This document shows positions 1 to 26,706 of a DNA stretch of 64,000 nucleotides, piece by piece; the stretch's first letter is position 1; every line of letters begins with the position of its first letter. The notes beneath the pieces were generated by a model. It was not told the origin of the DNA, ran no database searches, and saw only the letters and a list, made by a program, of their open reading frames with translations. The DNA is from Actinomycetaceae bacterium (GTDB taxonomy: Bacteria; Actinomycetota; Actinomycetes; Actinomycetales; Actinomycetaceae). The stretch lies in assembly GCA_030532405.1 (NCBI GenBank), contig JAUNLF010000001.1, positions 124,001 to 188,000 on the forward strand, given 5' to 3'. A program made the translations under genes and the position numbers.

Positions 1-519
1 AGCCACTGACAAGCCGGCGCGGGTTGAGCGCTGCAAGTCAGCGCCCTCCGGATTAGACGTCAGTGCCAGAGCAAACAACCCCTTGCCGTGTTCGGCTGCA
101 AGCCGGGCGGTCTGATCGTAAGCGCCCGGCCCCATGTACGGCGACACCGTGATCGCGTCGGCCTCAAGCGGCGCCCCCTTTGGTAAGAACGCGTCGGCGT
201 AACCGGCCATCGTGGATCCAATATCCCCGCGCTTTACATCCAGCACGGTGAGGATTCCGCGTTCGCGCGCAGTACCCAGAACGTCCTCCAGGACAGCAAT
301 TCCCGCCGACCCAAAACGTTCAAAAAATGCTGACTGCGGTTTGATTGCAGCCGCGTTTTCAAGGCCGTCGAGGGCGCGGCTGGCGAACTCTTTGAGTCCG
401 TGAACCGTGTCGGGCAGACCCCAACGCTGTAGCAGTGCGGCGTGCGGGTCAATACCCGCGCACACCGGGCCGCGCTGGTCGATTGCGGCCTGTAGGCGAG
501 CGCCGAAAGACTCAGGCAT
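1..519 (-). CDS. pyrF: orotidine 5'-phosphate decarboxylase (partial, C-terminus outside window)
   Basis: Decarboxylates OMP to UMP, the last step of de novo pyrimidine synthesis. The frame reads M-P-E-S-F-G from an ATG at 519 and stays open to the left edge, so about 173 N-terminal residues are visible. CAGIDPH, the AIKPQ strand and the [10 protein letters not shown] segment match the long type-2 OMP decarboxylase family of actinobacteria; the D-x-K-x-x-D in VLDVKRGD carries the catalytic Lys/Asp residues. The start overlaps the end of carB by 8 bases, so the two are probably translationally coupled as the last visible gene of the pyr operon. Confidence 0.93.
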
Positions 520-3500
520 TTGAGGCCTCCCGCTTGTTGTGGCGATCTTCGCGTTCACGGTCGTAATCCTGCAAAGACTTCACGTCGCAGTGTCCGCCCC
601 GAATCACTTCGATTGCGCGAACCGCCGCGTTAAACGCCTGCATCGTGGTGACAATAGCTTTACCCGAGGAGGTCGTTGCCGCGCGGATCTTGTAGCCGTC
701 ACGGCGCTGGGACTGACCCTGCGGGGTGTTAACCACCATGTCCACCTGGCCGTTGTAGATCAGGTCGGTGATGGTGGGCTCGCCCTCTTGACGCTCCGAT
801 TCCTTGTGAACCACTTCAACGTCAATGCCGTTTCGGCGAAGCACCGACGCGGTTCCGGCGGTGGCTAGAACGCGGAAGCCCATCTCGACCAGTTTCACGA
901 CGGGGAACACGGCGTTGCGCTTGTCGGCGTCCGCGATCGAAATGAACACGGTGCCCTGCGTTGGCAGTCCGCCAAAGGCAGCTACCTGGGACTTTGCGTA
1001 GGCCGCGGGGAACGACAGGTCGTGGCCCATGACTTCGCCGGTGGAGCGCATTTCGGGGCCGAGGAGCGTGTCCACGACCTCGCCCTTTTCGTCGCGGAAC
1101 CGGTCGAACGGCAACACAGCTTCCTTAACGGCGATCGGCTCGTCCAGGTCGATCACGGACTGGTCGCGCATCGGCAGCTCGCCAGCCGCGCGCAGCTGCG
1201 CGATCGTCTGCCCCATCTGAATCTTCGCGGCCGCCCTGGCAAGCGCCACACCGGAGGCCTTCGACGCAAACGGAACCGTGCGCGATGCGCGCGGATTCGC
1301 CTCAATCACGTAGAGCACATCGGATGCCAGTGCGAACTGGATGTTCAACAATCCGCGCACACCCACCCCGTCGGCAATCGCCCTCGTGGATCGAACAATG
1401 CGGTCAATCTGACGCGACGACAGGGTCATTGGCGGCATAACGCACGCGGAGTCACCGGAGTGAATGCCGGCCTCCTCGATGTGCTCCATGATGCCGCCCA
1501 TGAACAGGTCGGTGCCGTCGTACAGCGCGTCCACGTCGATCTCGACGGCGTCATCCAAGAAGCGGTCGATCAAAAGCGGGCCGTTAGCGAACGACTCATC
1601 CCCCAGGCGCTGCAGGTAGTCGCGCAGACCGTCCTCGTCATACACGATTTCCATGCCACGGCCGCCAAGAACGAACGACGGGCGAGCCAAAACCGGGTAG
1701 CCAACCTTGTCAGCAACTTCCAAAGCCGCGGTCGGCGTCGTTGCAGTGCCGTGCGCGGGCGCGGGAAGGCCAACGTTGTCGAGGACGCGGCCGAACTCCT
1801 CGCGGTCTTCAGCCAAATCGATCGACTCGGGAGTCGTACCCACAATTGGCACGCCCGCCGCCTTCAAATCGTTAGCAAGGGACAGCGGAGTTTGACCACC
1901 AAGCTGCACCAACATGCCCGCGACGGGGCCTGCGGCCTGCTCGGTTTCATAGATTTCGAGGACGTCCTCAAGCGTGAGCGGCTCAAAATACAGGCGGTCG
2001 GAAATGTCGTAGTCGGTAGACACGGTCTCGGGGTTGCAGTTAATCATGATCGTGTCGTACTCAGATTCCAACGCCAACGTCGCGTGAACACAGGAGTAGT
2101 CGAACTCGATTCCCTGCCCAATCCTGTTCGGACCGGAGCCCAAGATGATCACGGCCGGACGGTCGCGCTGCTCAATCTCGGAAATATCTTCGTAAGTCGA
2201 GTAATAGTACGGCGTGCGCGCCTCGCACATTCCCGCACACGTATCCACGGCCTTGTAAACGGGGTGAATGTTGTAAGCGCGGCGAATCTCGCGAACCACT
2301 TCCTCTTGCATTCCGCGAAGGGACGCGATTTGCGCATCCGAAAAACCGTGCTTCTTAGCTTCTCGTAGCACATCCGCAGTGAGGGCGTCCGCGTCCATAA
2401 CTTCGCGCGCTATTTGCTCAAGCAACTGCAACTGGTCCACAAACCACGGGTCGATCGCGGTTGCATCACAAATCTGCTTAGTGGTCGCGCCCGCGCGGAT
2501 TGCCTGCTGCACCTCGATCAGGCGGCCCTCCGTCGGAGTTTGCATGCGCTGCAAGAGCTCACCAAGCTCGCCCTCGTTTGGCGCATCACCGTCCCAATGG
2601 AAGGTAACGCCCTTCTTGTCGATTGAACGCTGCGCTTTTTGGAGCGCTTCAGTGAAGTTACGGCCAATCGCCATCGCTTCACCCACCGACTTCATAGAGG
2701 TCGTGAGCGTCTTGTCGGACGCGGGGAACTTCTCGAACGCGAAGCGCGGCACCTTCACAACCACGTAGTCGATTGCCGGCGAATCCGCGGCCGTGCGGCC
2801 AGCCGCAATGTCGTTTGGAATTTCCGCGAGGTCGTAGCCAATCGCCAGGCGGGCTGCGATCTTTGCGATCGGGATGCCGGTCGCCTTGGAAGCCAGCGCC
2901 GAGGAACGCGACACGCGCGGGTTCATCTCGATAACCACGATGCGGCCATCCGCGGGATTCAGCGCGAACTGGATGTTACAACCACCCTGGTTCACACCCA
3001 CTTCGGTGATCACGTCAGTGCCGATCTTGTACAGGTTCTGAAGCTCTTCGTCAGTGAGCGTCAACGTCGGCGCAATCGTGATCGAGTCACCGGTGTGAAC
3101 ACCCATCGGGTCCACGTTTTCAATCGCGGTGATAATCATCGTGTGGCCGGTGCGGTCACGAATCAGTTCAAGCTCGATCTCTTTCCACCCCAGGATGGAT
3201 TCTTCAAGCAACACTTCGTTCGTAATCGAATCGCGCAGGCCGTGCCCCACAAAGCGGCGCAGTTCCTCCTCGTCGTGAGCAAAACCTGACCCCAGGCCAC
3301 CCATCGTGAACGAGGGGCGCACAACCAGCGGGTAGCCGAGCTCTTCGGCGGCCGCCAAAGCATCTTCCATCGAGTGCGCAATCCGCGACCTCGCGACCTC
3401 AGCCCCGCAACGCTCCACGGCATCCTTGAACGCGTCGCGGTCTTCACCCGCGTTAATCGCCTCGTACGTGGCGCCAATCATTTCGACGCCGTACTTTTCC

Positions 3501-3823
3501 AGCACGCCCGCCTCAACCAGGCCCATTGCGGTGTTCAGCGCGGTTTGTCCGCCCAGAGTCGGAAGTAGCGCGTCGGGGCGTTCCTTCGCAATAATTTTCT
3601 CGACGACTTCGACCGTGATCGGCTCGATGTAGGTAGCGTCCGCCATGTTCGGGTCCGTCATGATGGTTGCGGGGTTGGAGTTCACCAACACCACGCGCAC
3701 GCCCTCTTCTTTCAAAACGCGACACGCCTGCGACCCCGAGTAGTCAAACTCGCACGCCTGCCCTATAACGATCGGGCCGGATCCAATCACGAGGACGGAC
3801 TTAATATCTGTTCTCAGTGGCAT
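512..3823 (-). CDS. carB: carbamoyl-phosphate synthase large subunit
   Basis: Makes carbamoyl phosphate from bicarbonate, ammonia and two ATP for pyrimidine and arginine synthesis. The 1103 residues are normal for the family. Two homologous ATP-grasp halves are complete: the first starts with [17 protein letters not shown] and the second repeats it as [16 protein letters not shown] near residue 560. An MGS-like allosteric domain is at the C-terminus ([11 protein letters not shown] onward). The start overlaps the end of carA by 10 bases. The large subunit looks intact although its partner CarA lacks the glutaminase domain; ammonia would then have to be free or come from another amidotransferase. 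Confidence 0.97.
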
Positions 3824-4341
3824 TTGGCTTCTCCTTCACCGGCGTTCTTCACGCGCTGGACAAGTTCATTCACGATCGAGCGCGGAATCGGCGTGCTTTG
3901 CGACAGCTCACCGAGCGCCTCGGGCAGGCAATCCCCCGAAAAAATTCCAACCTTAACTTCCGGGTTGTTCACGGCAATGCGCGCGATCGCCCTCGTATCC
4001 ACGTGCGATACGCCAACGACGTTTTCATTTTTGAGGGCGGGCTCAAGCTCGCCTTCGGACTGCCAGTTGGACGCCAGGCGGGCTGGCTCTCGAAGCACCA
4101 GGCCGGCCGCGCAGTAGCTTTGCGACTTCGCGTCAGCCTCGTGCACTCCCACGTTGCCGATGTGAGGGCTGGTGAAAAGCACGATTGCGCCCTCATTTGC
4201 CGGATCTGTTAGGGCCTGCTGGTATGCGGTTACGGACGTGTCAACGACGAGGCGCCCGCACGCGCACCCCGACGCGGCCCAAGACAGGCCGCGAAACACG
4301 TGGCCCTGATCGGTAACTAAAACTGCTGGTAGCTGGCTCAT
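3814..4341 (-). CDS. carA: carbamoyl-phosphate synthase small subunit, N-terminal domain only
   Basis: The 175 residues align with the N-terminal small-chain domain of Car[21 protein letters not shown], a [10 protein letters not shown] segment, SPHIGNVG, and VDTRAIAR all have direct counterparts in E. coli CarA up to about residue 165. The class-I glutamine amidotransferase domain that normally follows (about 200 residues with the catalytic Cys-His-Glu triad) is absent. The frame stops and carB begins inside the last codons, so there is no frameshift remnant. The ATG start overlaps the pyrC stop (ATGA) with a GGAGG-type ribosome site; a longer frame upstream exists but would run back into pyrC. 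The enzyme may depend on ammonia or use a separate glutaminase; that part is inference. Confidence 0.88.
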
Positions 4342-5651
4342 CGGTCCTCCTTTGCAACCGGCTGGCCGCCGCGAACCGTGATAGCGCCGCGGTAAACGGT
4401 GTAGAGCACCTGCCCCTTCAGCGTCTGCCCCACGTACGGCGTATTCGTCGAGCGCGTCCACTGGCTATCGGGATCAACCGTGCGCTCCACGTCGGGATCA
4501 ACGAACGCGAGGTTCGCGAAGCTGCCGGCCTCAATCGGCTGGCCCTGCTCATCCGACACGCGACCGATCTCGGCGGGCTTTTCCGACATGACGCGTGCAA
4601 TGTCACGCCAGTTCATGCGCTCCGTTGCAACCATCGTGGTGATTAGCACGGGTAGCGCGGTCTCCAGGCCCGTCATACCAAACGCGCCTGCCTGCCATTC
4701 GCAGTCCTTCTTTTCCAAAGGATGCGGAGCGTGGTCCGTTCCAACCGTGTCGATCGTTCCATCAGCGAGGGCGTCTCGAAGCGCTTCCACGTCTTCGGCG
4801 CGGCGCAACGGTGGGTTTACCTTGTAGCGCGGATCGTATGTGCGCGCCTTTTCTTCGGTCAGGAACAAGTGGTGGGGCGTGGCTTCAGCGGTAACGTTGA
4901 TGCCCTTCTTCTTTGCCGCGCGGATCTGCTCCACAGAGCCCTTCGTGGAGGCGTGCAGCACGTGGTAACGCGAGCCCACGTGTTCGGTTAGAGCCACGTC
5001 GCGGGCGATGATCGCTTCCTCCGCGACCGCCGGCCAGCCGGCAAGCCCCAGTTCGGAAGAAAGGGGCGACTCGTTCATCTGCGCGCCGGCCGTCAAGTCC
5101 GGGTCCTGCGCGTGCTGGGCGATAACGCCGTCAAAGATTTTCACGTATTCCAACGCCCTGCGCATAAGTACGGGGTCGGATACGCACATGCCGTCGTCAG
5201 AAAATACGCGCACGCGCGCGCTCGACTCCGCCATCGGCCCCATAGCCGACAGTGTTTTACCTTCCAGCCCAACGGTTACCGCGCCAACCGGGTGCACATC
5301 CACCCAAGCGGCCGCATCTCCGAGGGCCTTCACTTGTTCAACAACCGAGGCCGTATCGGCCACGGGATTGGTATTCGCCATCGCGAACACGCACGTGTAA
5401 CCGCCCACCGCGGCCGCACGAGTTCCCGTGAATACCGTTTCGGCGTCCTCCTGCCCCGGTTCACGCAAGTGAGTGTGAAAATCGACCAGGCCCGGCAGGG
5501 CAACCAGTCCGGAAACGTCAATAACCTCAGCGTCTGGGACGGCGCGGGCAGCATCTTCACCCACCGCAACGATTCGATCGCCCTCAACGGCGATATCGGC
5601 GACATCTTCGCCGTACGGGCGCGCGCCTTTGAACAGGTACTGGTTACTCAT
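4338..5651 (-). CDS. pyrC: dihydroorotase
   Basis: Cyclises carbamoyl aspartate to dihydroorotate (third step of UMP synthesis). The 437-residue class-I amidohydrolase shows the metal-binding [10 protein letters not shown] near residue 60, [11 protein letters not shown], and the late [10 protein letters not shown] motif. I chose the ATG giving M-S-N-Q-Y; seven codons upstream is another possible start, but this one overlaps the pyrB stop by 8 bases in the same way as the other operon junctions. It sits between pyrB and carA and is probably co-transcribed. Confidence 0.96.
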
Positions 5652-6615
5652 TGATTGCCCCCTGGTTTGCAAGAAGTAGGTACAGCGCCGCCATGCGAAC
5701 GCTCACCCCGTTATTGACTTGTTGAACGATTACGGATTGGACGGAGTCGGCTGCCTGCGCGCAAATCTCCAGTCCGCGGTTGAGCGGGCCCGGATGCATG
5801 ATCGCGGTCTTTTTCGACAGGCGTTCGAAGCGGTCGATATCGAGGCCGTACGCGTGATGGTATTCGCCGGGCGACGGGAAGAAGCCGCCGCCTATCGAAC
5901 TCATGCGTTCGCGTTGAACGCGGAGCATAATCACCGCGTCGGGGTGGTCTGACAGTGCTTCATCGAGGTCGTACGTAACGTCGCACGGCCAGTTTTCAAC
6001 GCCTAGCGGCACGAGGGTGGGCGGGGCGACGAGGGTTACGCGGGCACCCAGTAGGGACATGAGTTGCACGTCGGAGCGGGCTACACGCGAATGCAGGATG
6101 TCGCCCACGATCACGACGTGAGCGCCGTCCAAGGTACTCCCCGACTCGGCGGGCGCGCCGTTGTTCGTGTAGTGGCGACGCAACGTCATAGCATCTAGCA
6201 GGGCTTGGGTCGGGTGCTGGTGAGTGCCATCCCCGGCGTTCAAAACCGGGCGGTGGATCCAACCGGCGTGAGCCAGGCGGTGCGCGGCCCCCGAAGACGA
6301 GTGCCGGACGACCACGGCGTCCGCCCCCATCGCCTGCAGTGTGAGTGCCGTGTCTTTTAGGGACTCGCCCTTGGATACCGAGGACCCCTTGGACGAAAAG
6401 TTGATCACGTCTGCCGACAAGCGCTTGGCCGCGGTTTCAAAAGACAGGCGCGTCCTGGTGGAGTCTTCAAAGAACAGGTTCACAACCGTCTTGCCGCGAA
6501 GCGTTGGTAGTTTTTTGACCGCGCGCGACTGGGTCGCAGCCATCGCTTCGGCAGTGTCAAGCAGTGTGAGGGCGTCTTCGAGAGTTAAGTCTTCGATCGA
6601 GATCAGGTGCTTCAT
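5644..6615 (-). CDS. pyrB: aspartate carbamoyltransferase catalytic subunit
   Basis: Transfers the carbamoyl group to aspartate. The 323 residues contain the carbamoyl-phosphate loop [13 protein letters not shown] (about residues 50-62), the [12 protein letters not shown] lid, the VVVRH strand and HPGPLNRG near the end, all diagnostic of ATCase. No pyrI regulatory subunit is visible in the window, as usual in actinobacteria. The start overlaps the pyrR stop (ATGA). Confidence 0.97.
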
Positions 6616-7151
6616 GCGTTCTCCCGGATAATCACCGCGTCGGTGTCATCAACTTCGCTCAGCGTTATATCCACGGATTCACTTCGCGAAGTCGGCAGGT
6701 TCTTGCCCACAAAGTCGGGCCTAATGGGAAGCTCGCGGTGACCGCGGTCAACGAGAACCGCAAGGCGAACCGCGGAGGGGCGGCCGATATCGAATAGCGC
6801 GTCCATGGCTGCTTTAACAGTTCGACCGGTGTACAGCACGTCATCAACTACGATGACTGTCTTTCCGTCAATGCCACCGCCGGGAATGCGCGTGGGGTGA
6901 GGTGTGCGGATCGGTTGTTCAGCCAGGTCATCGCGATACATCGTGATGTCTACGGATCCAGCTTCAATGCTTGCGCCCGTGATTTCAGAAATCTTGGCAG
7001 CTATCCGCCCCGCTAGTGGGACTCCCCTGGTCGGAATCCCAAGCACGACAATGTTAGAACCACCGTCAGTGCGTTCAATAATCTCGTACGAAATGCGCGC
7101 AATTGCTCGCGCAATCTGGTCCTCATTGAGGACGGTTTTTTGTGGTGTCAA
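6612..7151 (-). CDS. pyrR: PyrR bifunctional pyr-operon regulator / uracil phosphoribosyltransferase
   Basis: An RNA-binding regulator that represses the pyr operon when UMP is high and has uracil phosphoribosyltransferase activity. The 179 residues show the PRPP loop [13 protein letters not shown] near residue 95 and the family's [10 protein letters not shown] segment. The start is a TTG (M-T-P-Q-K) with AAGGAG nine bases upstream; the nearby GTG is out of frame and stops at once. It is the first gene of the pyr operon, and its own leader carries a PyrR-binding loop covering the ribosome site, which points to translational autoregulation. Confidence 0.95.
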
Positions 7152-23856: not shown

Positions 23857-25209
23857 ATGAAGCGCAAACAGATTGCTACTGAGCGTTTGCTTATGATCGG
23901 TTCGGTAGTTCTGATCACGAGCCTGGCCTTTGAAGCGCTAGCTACCACGAATGCCATGCCAACCGTTGTGGAGGATCTGGGTGGCGATCGGTGGTATTCG
24001 CTGGCCGCTGGAATGGTGTTGGCGGCGCAGATTGTCTCCACTACCGTTGCGGGCTGGTGGGCTGACCGCACGGGCGTGAAGATCCCGCTGTTTCTGGGGC
24101 TCACAATGTTCTCGGCGGGCGCGCTCGCGGCCGGCCTGGCTCCCGTCCTCGCCGTATTCATTATCGGCCGCGCAATCCAGGGCCTCGGCGCAGGCCTGAT
24201 TATGGTTCCCCTCTACGTCATGGTTGGCGCCCTCGTATCCGCGGAACGCCGACCCATGTTTTTTGCCGCGTTCTCCTTCGCCTGGGTGCTCCCCTCGATG
24301 ATCGGCCCGTCGATCGCGGGATACATCATCGAGCAGTGGGACTGGCGTCCCGTGTTCTGGCTGATCGTACCGATCGCACTGGTCGCCCTCGCGCCCCTAT
24401 TCCCCATTTTGAAACGTATGCCCGCGCACGAGTCCACGCGCGCGCCCATGCCTCGCACGCTCTACGCGGCGGTAGTAACCAGCATTGGTATCGTCTTGCT
24501 CCAAGTCGCGGGCGGCCTGACCGGACCGGCCATGCGGATGGCTGCTGCCGGCGGCCTTCTACTACTCGCGCTCGCCCTGCCCCGCCTACTACCCAAGGGC
24601 ACGTTCCGCGCCGTACGCGGAGTCCCGGCCATCGTTGCCACTCGAGGCACGCTCATGGGATCGCTAACCGGCGTTGAGTTCTTCTTGCCCCTGGTTCTAA
24701 GTCGCGTGCACGGCTGGACACCGGCGCAAACCGGCCTCGCAATCGCCATTGGTTCGGTCACTTGGACCATCGGGTCGTGGGCACAAACTCGAATCCACCT
24801 GTGGCAAACCCGCACGCGAGTTCCCGCCGCCGGATCGATCCTCACATTGGTCGGCAGCGCGATGGCACTAACAATGCCGTTTGCCTCGGTGTCCGTATAC
24901 GTATCGTTGGCTGGTTTCTCGCTGATGGGCCTCGGCCTGGGCCTCGCCCACTCCACCTCATCCGACCTGTCCCTTGGCGCAACAAAGCAAAGCCACCACG
25001 GTGACGTATCGGCGTCCCTGCAGTTAGCGGACGCCCTCGGGCCCGCACTAGCAATGGGAATCACGTCCATTGCCCTATCGGCTTGGAGTCACGTTTCCTC
25101 GCCCGCATCCGCGTATCTGCCGGCGCCGCTGGTGGCGGTTGCCCTCGCAATCTTGGCGGTCATTGCATCCGCGCGAGTAATCGGTTTGGAACACCGCAAA
25201 AACCTGTAA
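23857..25209 (+). CDS. MFS multidrug-type exporter (first of a tandem pair)
   Basis: The 450 residues have about 12 hydrophobic segments. Motif A is GWWADRTGVK (about residue 67), with the drug-exporter TTNAMPT region in helix 1 and GRAIQGLGAGLIMVPLY in helix 4. GGAGGGG precedes the ATG. It is closely similar to the next gene over its whole length (shared blocks AGGLTGPA/SGGLSGAS, PLVLSRVHGWTP, ATKQSHHGDVSASLQLAD/VTAQSKHGEISASVQLAD). The substrate is unknown; drug or metabolite export is inferred from the family. Confidence 0.85.
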   Translation: MKRKQIATERLLMIGSVVLITSLAFEALATTNAMPTVVEDLGGDRWYSLAAGMVLAAQIVSTTVAGWWADRTGVKIPLFLGLTMFSAGALAAGLAPVLAVFIIGRAIQGLGAGLIMVPLYVMVGALVSAERRPMFFAAFSFAWVLPSMIGPSIAGYIIEQWDWRPVFWLIVPIALVALAPLFPILKRMPAHESTRAPMPRTLYAAVVTSIGIVLLQVAGGLTGPAMRMAAAGGLLLLALALPRLLPKGTFRAVRGVPAIVATRGTLMGSLTGVEFFLPLVLSRVHGWTPAQTGLAIAIGSVTWTIGSWAQTRIHLWQTRTRVPAAGSILTLVGSAMALTMPFASVSVYVSLAGFSLMGLGLGLAHSTSSDLSLGATKQSHHGDVSASLQLADALGPALAMGITSIALSAWSHVSSPASAYLPAPLVAVALAILAVIASARVIGLEHRKNL

Positions 25210-25312
25210 GCAGAATCACCCGACTCACGCGCCCCGCTGGCGGCCGTGCGAACACCGACTTTGGCCCGTCATTTAGCGGTTTGCACACGCCTTTTCGCTG
25301 TCAGAAAAAGTG

Positions 25313-25343
25313 TTGCCGCCCCGGTAAGGCAAGCCTAGCCTTG
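25313..25343 (+). promoter_or_regulatory. promoter with overlapping DtxR/IdeR-type iron box
   Basis: TTGCCG (25313-25318) and TAGCCT (25336-25341) are 17 bases apart; six bases later the next gene starts with ATG, so the mRNA is probably leaderless. The palindrome TAAGGCAAGCCTAGCCTTG (25325-25343) covers the -10 and matches the DtxR/IdeR consensus TWAGGTWAGSCTWACCTWA at most positions. Metal-dependent repression is inferred. Confidence 0.65.
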
Positions 25344-25347
25344 GGGC

Positions 25348-26706
25348 ATGAGAACTGCAGAAAAGACAAAGTTTACACCGGTGGAGCACCTGCTACTGCT
25401 CGGTTCCCTGGTACTAATTCTTTCCCTCGCATTTGAGGGAACGGCAACGACAAATGCCATGCCGACCATCATCACCGAGCTTGGCGGCGACCAGTGGTAT
25501 TCGCTTGCCGCCGGCATGAAGATGGCGGGCCAGATCATCTCGATTGTGATCGCGGGATGGTGGGCGGACCGCTACGGGGCGGGTCGGCCACTGGTTGTTG
25601 GCATGATCGCGTTCGCGGCGGGAGCACTCCTGGCCGGTATGGCTCCGGCCCTGTGGATGTTTGTGGCTGGCCGCGCGATCGCGGGGCTCGGCTCGGGCCT
25701 GATCATGGTTCCGCTTTACGTAATGGTTGGCGGTATTGCATCGCCGGGGAAGCGTCCGACTTTCTTTGCAGTATTCTCATTTGGCTGGGCGCTGCCGGCG
25801 ATTGTTGGCCCGTCGATTGCGGGGTTCATCGTAGAGCTGTGGGGCTGGCGCCCTGTCTTTTGGCTTGTCGCCGTGGTCGCCCTTCTGGCGTTGGCTCCCC
25901 TGGCCCCTCTGTTCAAGCGTTTGCCTGAACACCGTGAGGTCAACACTCCCGCTCCCCCGGTCCTAGTCGGCGCGGTGCTAACTTCGATCGGCATCATGGC
26001 GCTTCAGGTTTCCGGCGGCCTGTCCGGAGCTTCCGCCCTCATTGCCATTGCGGTTGGTGTCGTCTTGATCGCGGTTTCAATGCCCGGATTGCTTCCAAAG
26101 GGGACATTCCGTGCGAAGGAGGGCGTGGCTGCCGTGGTTGGCATGCGCGTTGCCCTGATGGGTTCGATTACCGGTGTGCAGTTCTTCCTACCCCTGGTTC
26201 TAAGCCGCGTGCACGGTTGGACGCCGACCCAGACCGGGTGGGCTATTGCAATTGGCACTACGGCGTGGGCGATTGGCGCGTGGGCGCAAACCCAGGTGCG
26301 GCCGTGGGACAAGCGCACGCGTATCCCCGTTGTCGCTGCCGGCTTGCTGATTGCAGGGGCCGTGCTCGCCCTCACTATGCCACTCGTTTCGGTGCCCCCG
26401 TATGTTTCCGTCATTGGTATTTCACTAATGGGACTTGGCCAGGGCTTTGCGCACGCAACATCGTCCGACCTGGCGCTTGGCGTAACCGCGCAGTCCAAGC
26501 ACGGTGAGATTTCCGCGTCCGTCCAGCTTGCCGACTCGATCGGCCCCGCGCTGACGATGGGATTCATCTCCATCGCGTTCTCCGCGTGGGAGCGCCTAAC
26601 CGAATCCACCCCCTACATTGCGGCTCCAGGCGTGTCCTTGATCCTCGCGGTGCTCATGCTGTTCGCGGCACTTCGAATCATCGGCCTGCAGCGCCGACAG
26701 GACTAG
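25348..26706 (+). CDS. MFS multidrug-type exporter (second of a tandem pair, iron-box promoter)
   Basis: The 452 residues are a paralogue of the gene before it: same TTNAMPT helix, GGDQWYSLAAGM, motif A GWWADRYGAG, GRAIAGLGSGLIMVPLYVM and PLVLSRVHGWTPTQTG. About 12 hydrophobic segments. Unlike its twin it has its own promoter overlapped by an iron-box-like palindrome. Siderophore or xenosiderophore export is one possible role in such a setting, but the substrate cannot be read from the sequence. A strong terminator follows. Confidence 0.85.
   Translation: MRTAEKTKFTPVEHLLLLGSLVLILSLAFEGTATTNAMPTIITELGGDQWYSLAAGMKMAGQIISIVIAGWWADRYGAGRPLVVGMIAFAAGALLAGMAPALWMFVAGRAIAGLGSGLIMVPLYVMVGGIASPGKRPTFFAVFSFGWALPAIVGPSIAGFIVELWGWRPVFWLVAVVALLALAPLAPLFKRLPEHREVNTPAPPVLVGAVLTSIGIMALQVSGGLSGASALIAIAVGVVLIAVSMPGLLPKGTFRAKEGVAAVVGMRVALMGSITGVQFFLPLVLSRVHGWTPTQTGWAIAIGTTAWAIGAWAQTQVRPWDKRTRIPVVAAGLLIAGAVLALTMPLVSVPPYVSVIGISLMGLGQGFAHATSSDLALGVTAQSKHGEISASVQLADSIGPALTMGFISIAFSAWERLTESTPYIAAPGVSLILAVLMLFAALRIIGLQRRQD

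Follow-up and report, generated by a model that had tools for sequence, protein, structure and literature searches.

Introduction

Bacterial carbamoyl-phosphate synthetase (CPS) II is described in a review as a heterodimer of a glutaminase and a synthase, or as a single fused chain (PMC6022934), and a passage of another review takes glutamine as the nitrogen donor for all bacterial CPSases (PMC6245113). According to the latter source CPS is able to use free ammonia, although for the E. coli enzyme this occurs only at a very high, probably unphysiological level. External ammonia is the substrate of human CPS1, in which the catalytic Cys is missing, and the path proposed in the passages on its structure runs along the interface of the small and large moieties (PMC4655335). 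A convergent shift of CPS towards ammonia has been reported for the CPS III of the fish Oreochromis (Alcolapia) (PMC7657897), and the single-domain NAD synthetase, which has no glutaminase, is described as having ammonia as its physiological donor (PMC3376133). Among the matches listed in the open-licence literature, none described a bacterial CarA that naturally lacks the glutaminase domain.

We analysed a stretch of 64,000 nucleotides (the window) from an Actinomycetaceae bacterium, which encodes such a protein beside carB. We propose, with a probability of roughly three in four, that this is an ammonia-fed bacterial CPS in which the remaining CarA N-terminal domain would act as a structural subunit on CarB. 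In comparison with the E. coli CarA-CarB enzyme (CPS II), CarB is a full member and the short CarA corresponds to the N-terminal domain of CarA; the glutaminase domain is absent, however, and with it Cys269 and His353 (numbering as in the passages of PMC6245113), while a patch on CarB has been lost and Cys232 of CarB has been lost in one subclade. The likeness to vertebrate CPS1 is that the N-domain of the small subunit is kept with no working glutaminase (PMC4655335, in the passages on that enzyme), ammonia use being in our case deduced from sequence. CPS1, which needs N-acetylglutamate, differs in being one chain and in having a dead glutaminase domain (Cys to Ser), whereas here the domain is deleted, so that the inactive glutaminase-like domain retained in CPS I is missing. 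The fish example differs in being a fish enzyme. The single-domain NAD synthetase is taken as ancestral in the source passage (PMC3376133), whereas here the glutaminase was lost secondarily. We regard this CPS, with its shortened small subunit, as a variant of a known enzyme, and not a new kind.

A CarA reduced to its N-terminal domain

The genes of the pyr cluster in the window are as follows:

512..3823, minus strand, carB, full-length synthase subunit of 1103 aa, by domain matches
3814..4341, minus strand, short carA, CPSase small-chain N-terminal domain only, 175 aa, ATG at 4341
4338..5651, minus strand, pyrC, dihydroorotase, with a 4-base overlap with short carA (named from sequence)
5644..6615, minus strand, pyrB, aspartate carbamoyltransferase (named from sequence)
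6612..7151, minus strand, pyrR, first gene of the cluster (named from sequence)

The order is thus pyrR-pyrB-pyrC-short carA-carB, and a pyrF-type decarboxylase gene after carB extends past the left edge of the window. We observed that the short CarA matched PF00988 over residues 8-122 (109.7 bits, cut-off 27; profile positions 1-115 of 126), with a short tail beyond this domain. The Pfam domain search of the protein gave no GATase domain, and the class-I Cys-His-Glu was not present. The protein has the N-terminal CPSase small-chain domain of the glutamine-hydrolysing CarA family TIGR01368 and lacks its GATase domain, and it scored 109.2 bits against the NCBIfam cut-off of 307.35. The first-pass annotation had described a CarA cut down to its N-terminal domain that stops within the first codons of carB, and both statements were correct, the overlap with carB being 10 bases (3814-3823). 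It had also put the loss at about 200 residues. The loss itself was confirmed; its size was not, as the part aligned with the short CarA covers residues 5-151 of the 382 residues of E. coli CarA, leaving about 230 residues absent. Since short carA overlaps both pyrC and carB, there is no space for a glutaminase remnant, in agreement with the earlier reading.

CarB, which had been called full length, is indeed so: its 1103 residues carry PF02786, PF02787 and PF02142, as expected of the full-length two-half ATP-grasp enzyme with its allosteric domain, and it scored 1346 bits against the cut-off of 1027 for NCBIfam TIGR01369. The genome (2.23 Mb, 99.7% complete) had a single PF00988 match in a whole-genome profile search, the short carA itself; a second full carA, for which a search had been suggested, was not found. 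The companion search for an unassigned class-I GATase (E up to 1) gave five candidates, namely GuaA, HisH, PurQ, a GatD-like protein that falls below its own NCBIfam cut-off, and a PRK07567-type protein (P0001). All five belong to other families, and together with the lack of a second carA this supports the earlier claim of a CPS without a glutaminase of its own.

The truncation arose at least twice

When carA was compared in related genomes, as the first-pass annotation had proposed, the truncation was found to be common to 10 of the 11 members of the genus. Each of the 11 genomes has one PF00988 match. Ten lie at the same place and are short, with 158-175 aa counted from the likely start, and the sister species G003 keeps a full carA (396 aa). 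In nine of the short-CarA genomes, pyrR, pyrB and pyrC lie ahead of the short carA; in G002, the remaining one, the contig breaks off within pyrC. As nine further genomes of the genus carry the same truncation, a sequencing or assembly error, or chance, is ruled out.

In an order-wide draw, 381 of 396 genomes had a PF00988 match. With the E-value standing in for CarA length, best E-values above 1e-40 were confined to two genera, the present one (G000, G001) and a second (G035, G154, G264). The three proteins of the second genus, read directly, are 129-136 aa long from the likely start (22-46 residues shorter than those of the first genus), and pyrB and pyrC are not adjacent to the short carA in two of the three genomes. 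Three genomes (G015, G033 and G126) had a carB with no PF00988 match anywhere in the genome. The carA-less loci are L084, L085 and L088. By eye, the carB of G033 and G126 lies between pyrC-like and pyrK-, pyrD- and pyrF-like frames, unlike the operon of the window, and its product is distant from the other CarBs in the tree.

CarB trees were built from 35 rows, chosen from genomes with CarB (54 of the 59 of one search, plus a second search and L090). The short-CarA rows formed two separate groups, each on a starred branch, both with the 35 rows and with 24 rows from which the patch region (see below) had been removed. G003 was sister to the other ten members of the genus, and the window's subclade (G000, G001, G002, G004 and G010) had a support of 100/100. 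Forcing the short-CarA rows into one clade was rejected by the AU test (p 7.6e-64; 24 CarB rows, patch region removed), which rules out a single origin of the truncation. Deletion of the glutaminase thus took place on at least two occasions, with different end points.

Short CarA is under purifying selection

The dN/dS of the short CarA was 0.06-0.22 (6 pairs), which corresponds to purifying selection, and the gene is open in 10/10 genomes of the genus, so that it does not look like a pseudogene. It evolves faster than CarB, for which values of 0.04-0.08 were obtained in five of six pairs that could be computed; across the computable pairs of CarB, PyrB and PyrC the range was 0.02-0.08. These values are rough, because dS was high in several pairs (above 1 in many), and some pairs could not be computed.

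For the CarA N-domain, we used 62 columns with a conservation of 95% or more among full CarA proteins (the full CarA frame was from 27 of up to 32 loci, with G003 perhaps counted twice, as L012 and L039). All 13 short proteins keep the core, that is Y40, PHxGNxG, R84, S91 and DTRA; the complete set of kept residues is A6, G13, G18, G25, Y40, P59, H60, G62, N63, G65, G80, R84, S91 and D115 to A118. All 13 are changed at other columns conserved in full CarA, e.g. F33, M37, Y49 and W77, and the columns lost could include contacts to CarB. The N-domain of CarA is said to have been described as an interaction domain by Guillou in 1989.

We also considered whether the short CarA has taken on a role outside CPS (e.g. 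in regulation), with CarB working alone on ammonia. The many changed CarA columns would fit this, as would the genomes in which CarB occurs with no PF00988 match (G015, G033 and G126), from which CarB alone may suffice and the N-domain may be dispensable. However, the short carA keeps its place beside carB, in the order also seen in G003, the sister with full CarA, and the core motifs of the N-domain are retained in 13/13, so that we consider a role outside CPS unlikely.

Our preferred reading remains that of an ammonia-fed CPS. With the glutaminase half deleted from CarA, catalysis in this enzyme would fall to CarB, and free ammonia would be the nitrogen donor. The short CarA would bind CarB, hold it in its active form as a small structural subunit and help in the use of ammonia, probably by lining a path for external ammonia to the carboxyphosphate site. 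With CarB capped by the N-domain alone, part of the interface between small and large subunits would be kept and the rest opened.

A patch on CarB is eroded

The CarB patch that is eroded in the genus maps for the most part to two stretches of the window:

2987..3148, minus strand, CarB patch part 1, residues 226-279 (columns 226, 227, 230, 258, 262, 265, 269, 273, 278 and 279)
2771..2806, minus strand, CarB patch part 2, residues 340-351 (columns 340, 343, 344, 347, 348 and 351)

We used CarB columns 1-1000, because many full rows stop near residue 1000. There were 422 columns invariant in 17 full-CarA rows, and 18 of these were changed in at least 8 of the 10 CarBs of the first genus; 17 of the 18 fall at residues 226-351. 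These patch columns were defined from the first genus alone (an earlier region test had bounds set by eye from both genera). In the second genus, 12-13 of the 18 patch columns were changed vs 16-17 of the 404 elsewhere, and in G015, which has no CarA match, 15 of 18 vs 21 of 404, the changes at the other invariant columns thus amounting to 4-5%. The excess was weaker in G033 and G126, whose CarBs are very divergent (12/16 and 10/16 patch changes vs 104/398 and 103/398 elsewhere). When the 17 full-CarA rows were left out one at a time, 0-2 of 18-20 patch columns were changed. G034 and G029, which are divergent but have a full CarA, were kept out of the conserved-column set and scored apart; these rows had 5/17 and 3/17 changed, with no enrichment.

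The CarB of the window retains Asp258 and Gln262 of the patch, and outside the patch region it deviates at 5 of 365 invariant columns. The spacing of residues 258, 262, 265, 269 and 273 is that of one face of a helix. Kim and Raushel reportedly placed Arg265 of CarB in the tunnel wall (in 2004). Residue 232, within residues 226-279, is Thr in all five members of the window's subclade, and the remaining 30 of the 35 rows have Cys. We take it to be the gate position of CPS1, Cys648 (mapped by offset). Cys648 is given as the gate residue, in CPS1 numbering, in a passage on the human enzyme (PMC4655335), and a review describes contacts of the small subunit with the carboxyphosphate and oligomerisation domains (PMC6245113). 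The simplest reading is that the glutaminase and the ammonia that it releases formerly depended on the eroded surface, and that this constraint would now be gone. The patch would then be the former surface for docking of the glutaminase and delivery of ammonia.

This erosion also speaks against the possibility that a glutaminase encoded elsewhere feeds ammonia to CarB in trans, docked on the short CarA, since the patch that is conserved with full CarA is the one that has eroded. The conservation of the short CarA is as expected of a docking platform, and the free-standing class-I GATase P0001 (NCBIfam PRK07567) has an intact Cys and HPE motif. To our knowledge, P0001 has no known partner; the other GATase candidates belong to families with known partners (GatD being below its NCBIfam cut-off). 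However, homologues of P0001 (E <1e-40) were present in the full-CarA G003 and in 16 of the 23 full-CarA genomes searched, while P0001 was not found in 4 of the 10 short-CarA genomes: G005, G006 and G009 gave weak GuaA-like matches only, and G004 (89% complete) gave none. In addition, the homologues of G007 (L209) and G008 (L207) have one stop codon each inside the match. The distribution of P0001 does not track the loss of the CarA glutaminase; we thus disfavour it as the partner of CarB and, within the reach of the glutaminase profiles PF00117, PF13507 and PF13522, hold supply in trans to be improbable. Among the three alternatives initially offered, free ammonia and a structural role of the remaining domain are therefore the best supported, and the amidotransferase in trans is not.

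Other amidotransferases in the window's subclade

We examined the other glutamine-dependent enzymes of the genome and its relatives. In GuaA of the 4/4 subclade genomes with guaA, Ser has taken the place of the Cys, and Met, Arg or Leu that of the His; both residues are kept in 15/15 others (in G004, the profile search gave no GMP synthetase match). In PurQ, the Cys is changed to Gly and the His of the HPE motif is replaced in 5/5 subclade genomes, and both are kept in 10/10 others. By eye, the neighbours of purQ are purC-, purS- and purL-like frames. The N-terminal Cys of PurF is present in 10/10 rows (G010, which was outside the searched set, is not among them); in the four subclade rows, STDT has become ATGT or ATGS and HNGN has become NNGN, and the usual STDT and HNGN are kept in 6/6 others. 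The Asp lost is presumably a residue of the glutamine site. The passages on PurF name Arg73, Thr76 and Gly102.

In two pairs with dead sites, the glutaminase domain of GuaA had dN/dS values of 0.17 and 0.21 vs 0.02 and 0.09 for the synthase part, while three intact pairs gave 0.02-0.07 vs about 0.02. For PurQ, the values were 0.08 and 0.18 in dead pairs, and 0.06 and 0.04 in two intact pairs. The dead domains are thus under looser constraint, yet still constrained. HisH (Cys and HPE), the GatD-like protein (Cys) and the PRK07567-type GATase (Cys) retain these residues, so that glutamine is used elsewhere in the same genome.

External ammonia can serve GMP synthetases in vitro (PMC10526850, in a passage on these enzymes), and judging from the replaced residues, the nitrogen of purines probably also comes from free ammonia in the window's subclade. 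The other aligned short-CarA genomes of the genus have both GuaA and PurQ intact, and GuaA is intact in the second genus. A general economy of ammonia is thus not supported for those genomes, and CPS therefore changed first and the purine enzymes later, in one subclade. On balance, we lean towards a lineage of Actinomycetaceae that moved the nitrogen of de novo nucleotide synthesis stepwise from glutamine to free ammonia: the CarA glutaminase would have been deleted, then the sites of GuaA, PurQ and probably PurF dismantled, with the histidine and cell-wall amidotransferases left intact and the leftover domains serving as structural subunits.

The dead glutaminase sites could also indicate a decaying pathway, in which pyrimidines and purines are taken up and the genes are relics. 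The same genomes have several dead sites, the short CarA evolves faster than CarB, and 17 of 36 genomes, among them 11/11 of the genus, had no match to CTP synthase (PF06418; 14/14 controls matched). Against this stand the low dN/dS of CarB, PyrB and PyrC and of the synthase domains of GuaA (0.02-0.09), the syntenic cluster with its open frames, and the few deviations of the window's CarB outside the patch region, and decay appears to us a doubtful explanation.

Under the reading that we prefer, these genomes would run against the view of glutamine as the physiological donor, which is given in a review of 2018. They would also be natural repeated experiments on the role of the CarA N-domain without a glutaminase and on the CarB residues that serve glutamine-derived ammonia. 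Both dead proteins still score above their NCBIfam cut-offs, GuaA under the name 'glutamine-hydrolyzing GMP synthase' and PurQ as 'PurQ', so that the change would escape automatic annotation as well as metabolic models.

Some further observations were made in these genomes. Among ten members of the genus searched with PF13522 (G000-G009), a GlmS-like class-II GATase was seen by eye only in G003, G007 and G008; the other seven had PurF alone, or PurF and an AsnB-like protein. G033 and G126 have extra partial C-terminal pieces of GMP synthetase within about 22 kb of a longer guaA, three of the four with stops. In two genomes of the second genus, a single frame (L047 13962-15527; L086 2542-4125) covers shikimate kinase and AroB, an apparent fusion, and in the window these are separate genes. 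At 23857-26706 of the window, two adjacent frames of about 450 aa have similar first residues and appear by eye to be a tandem pair of transporters.
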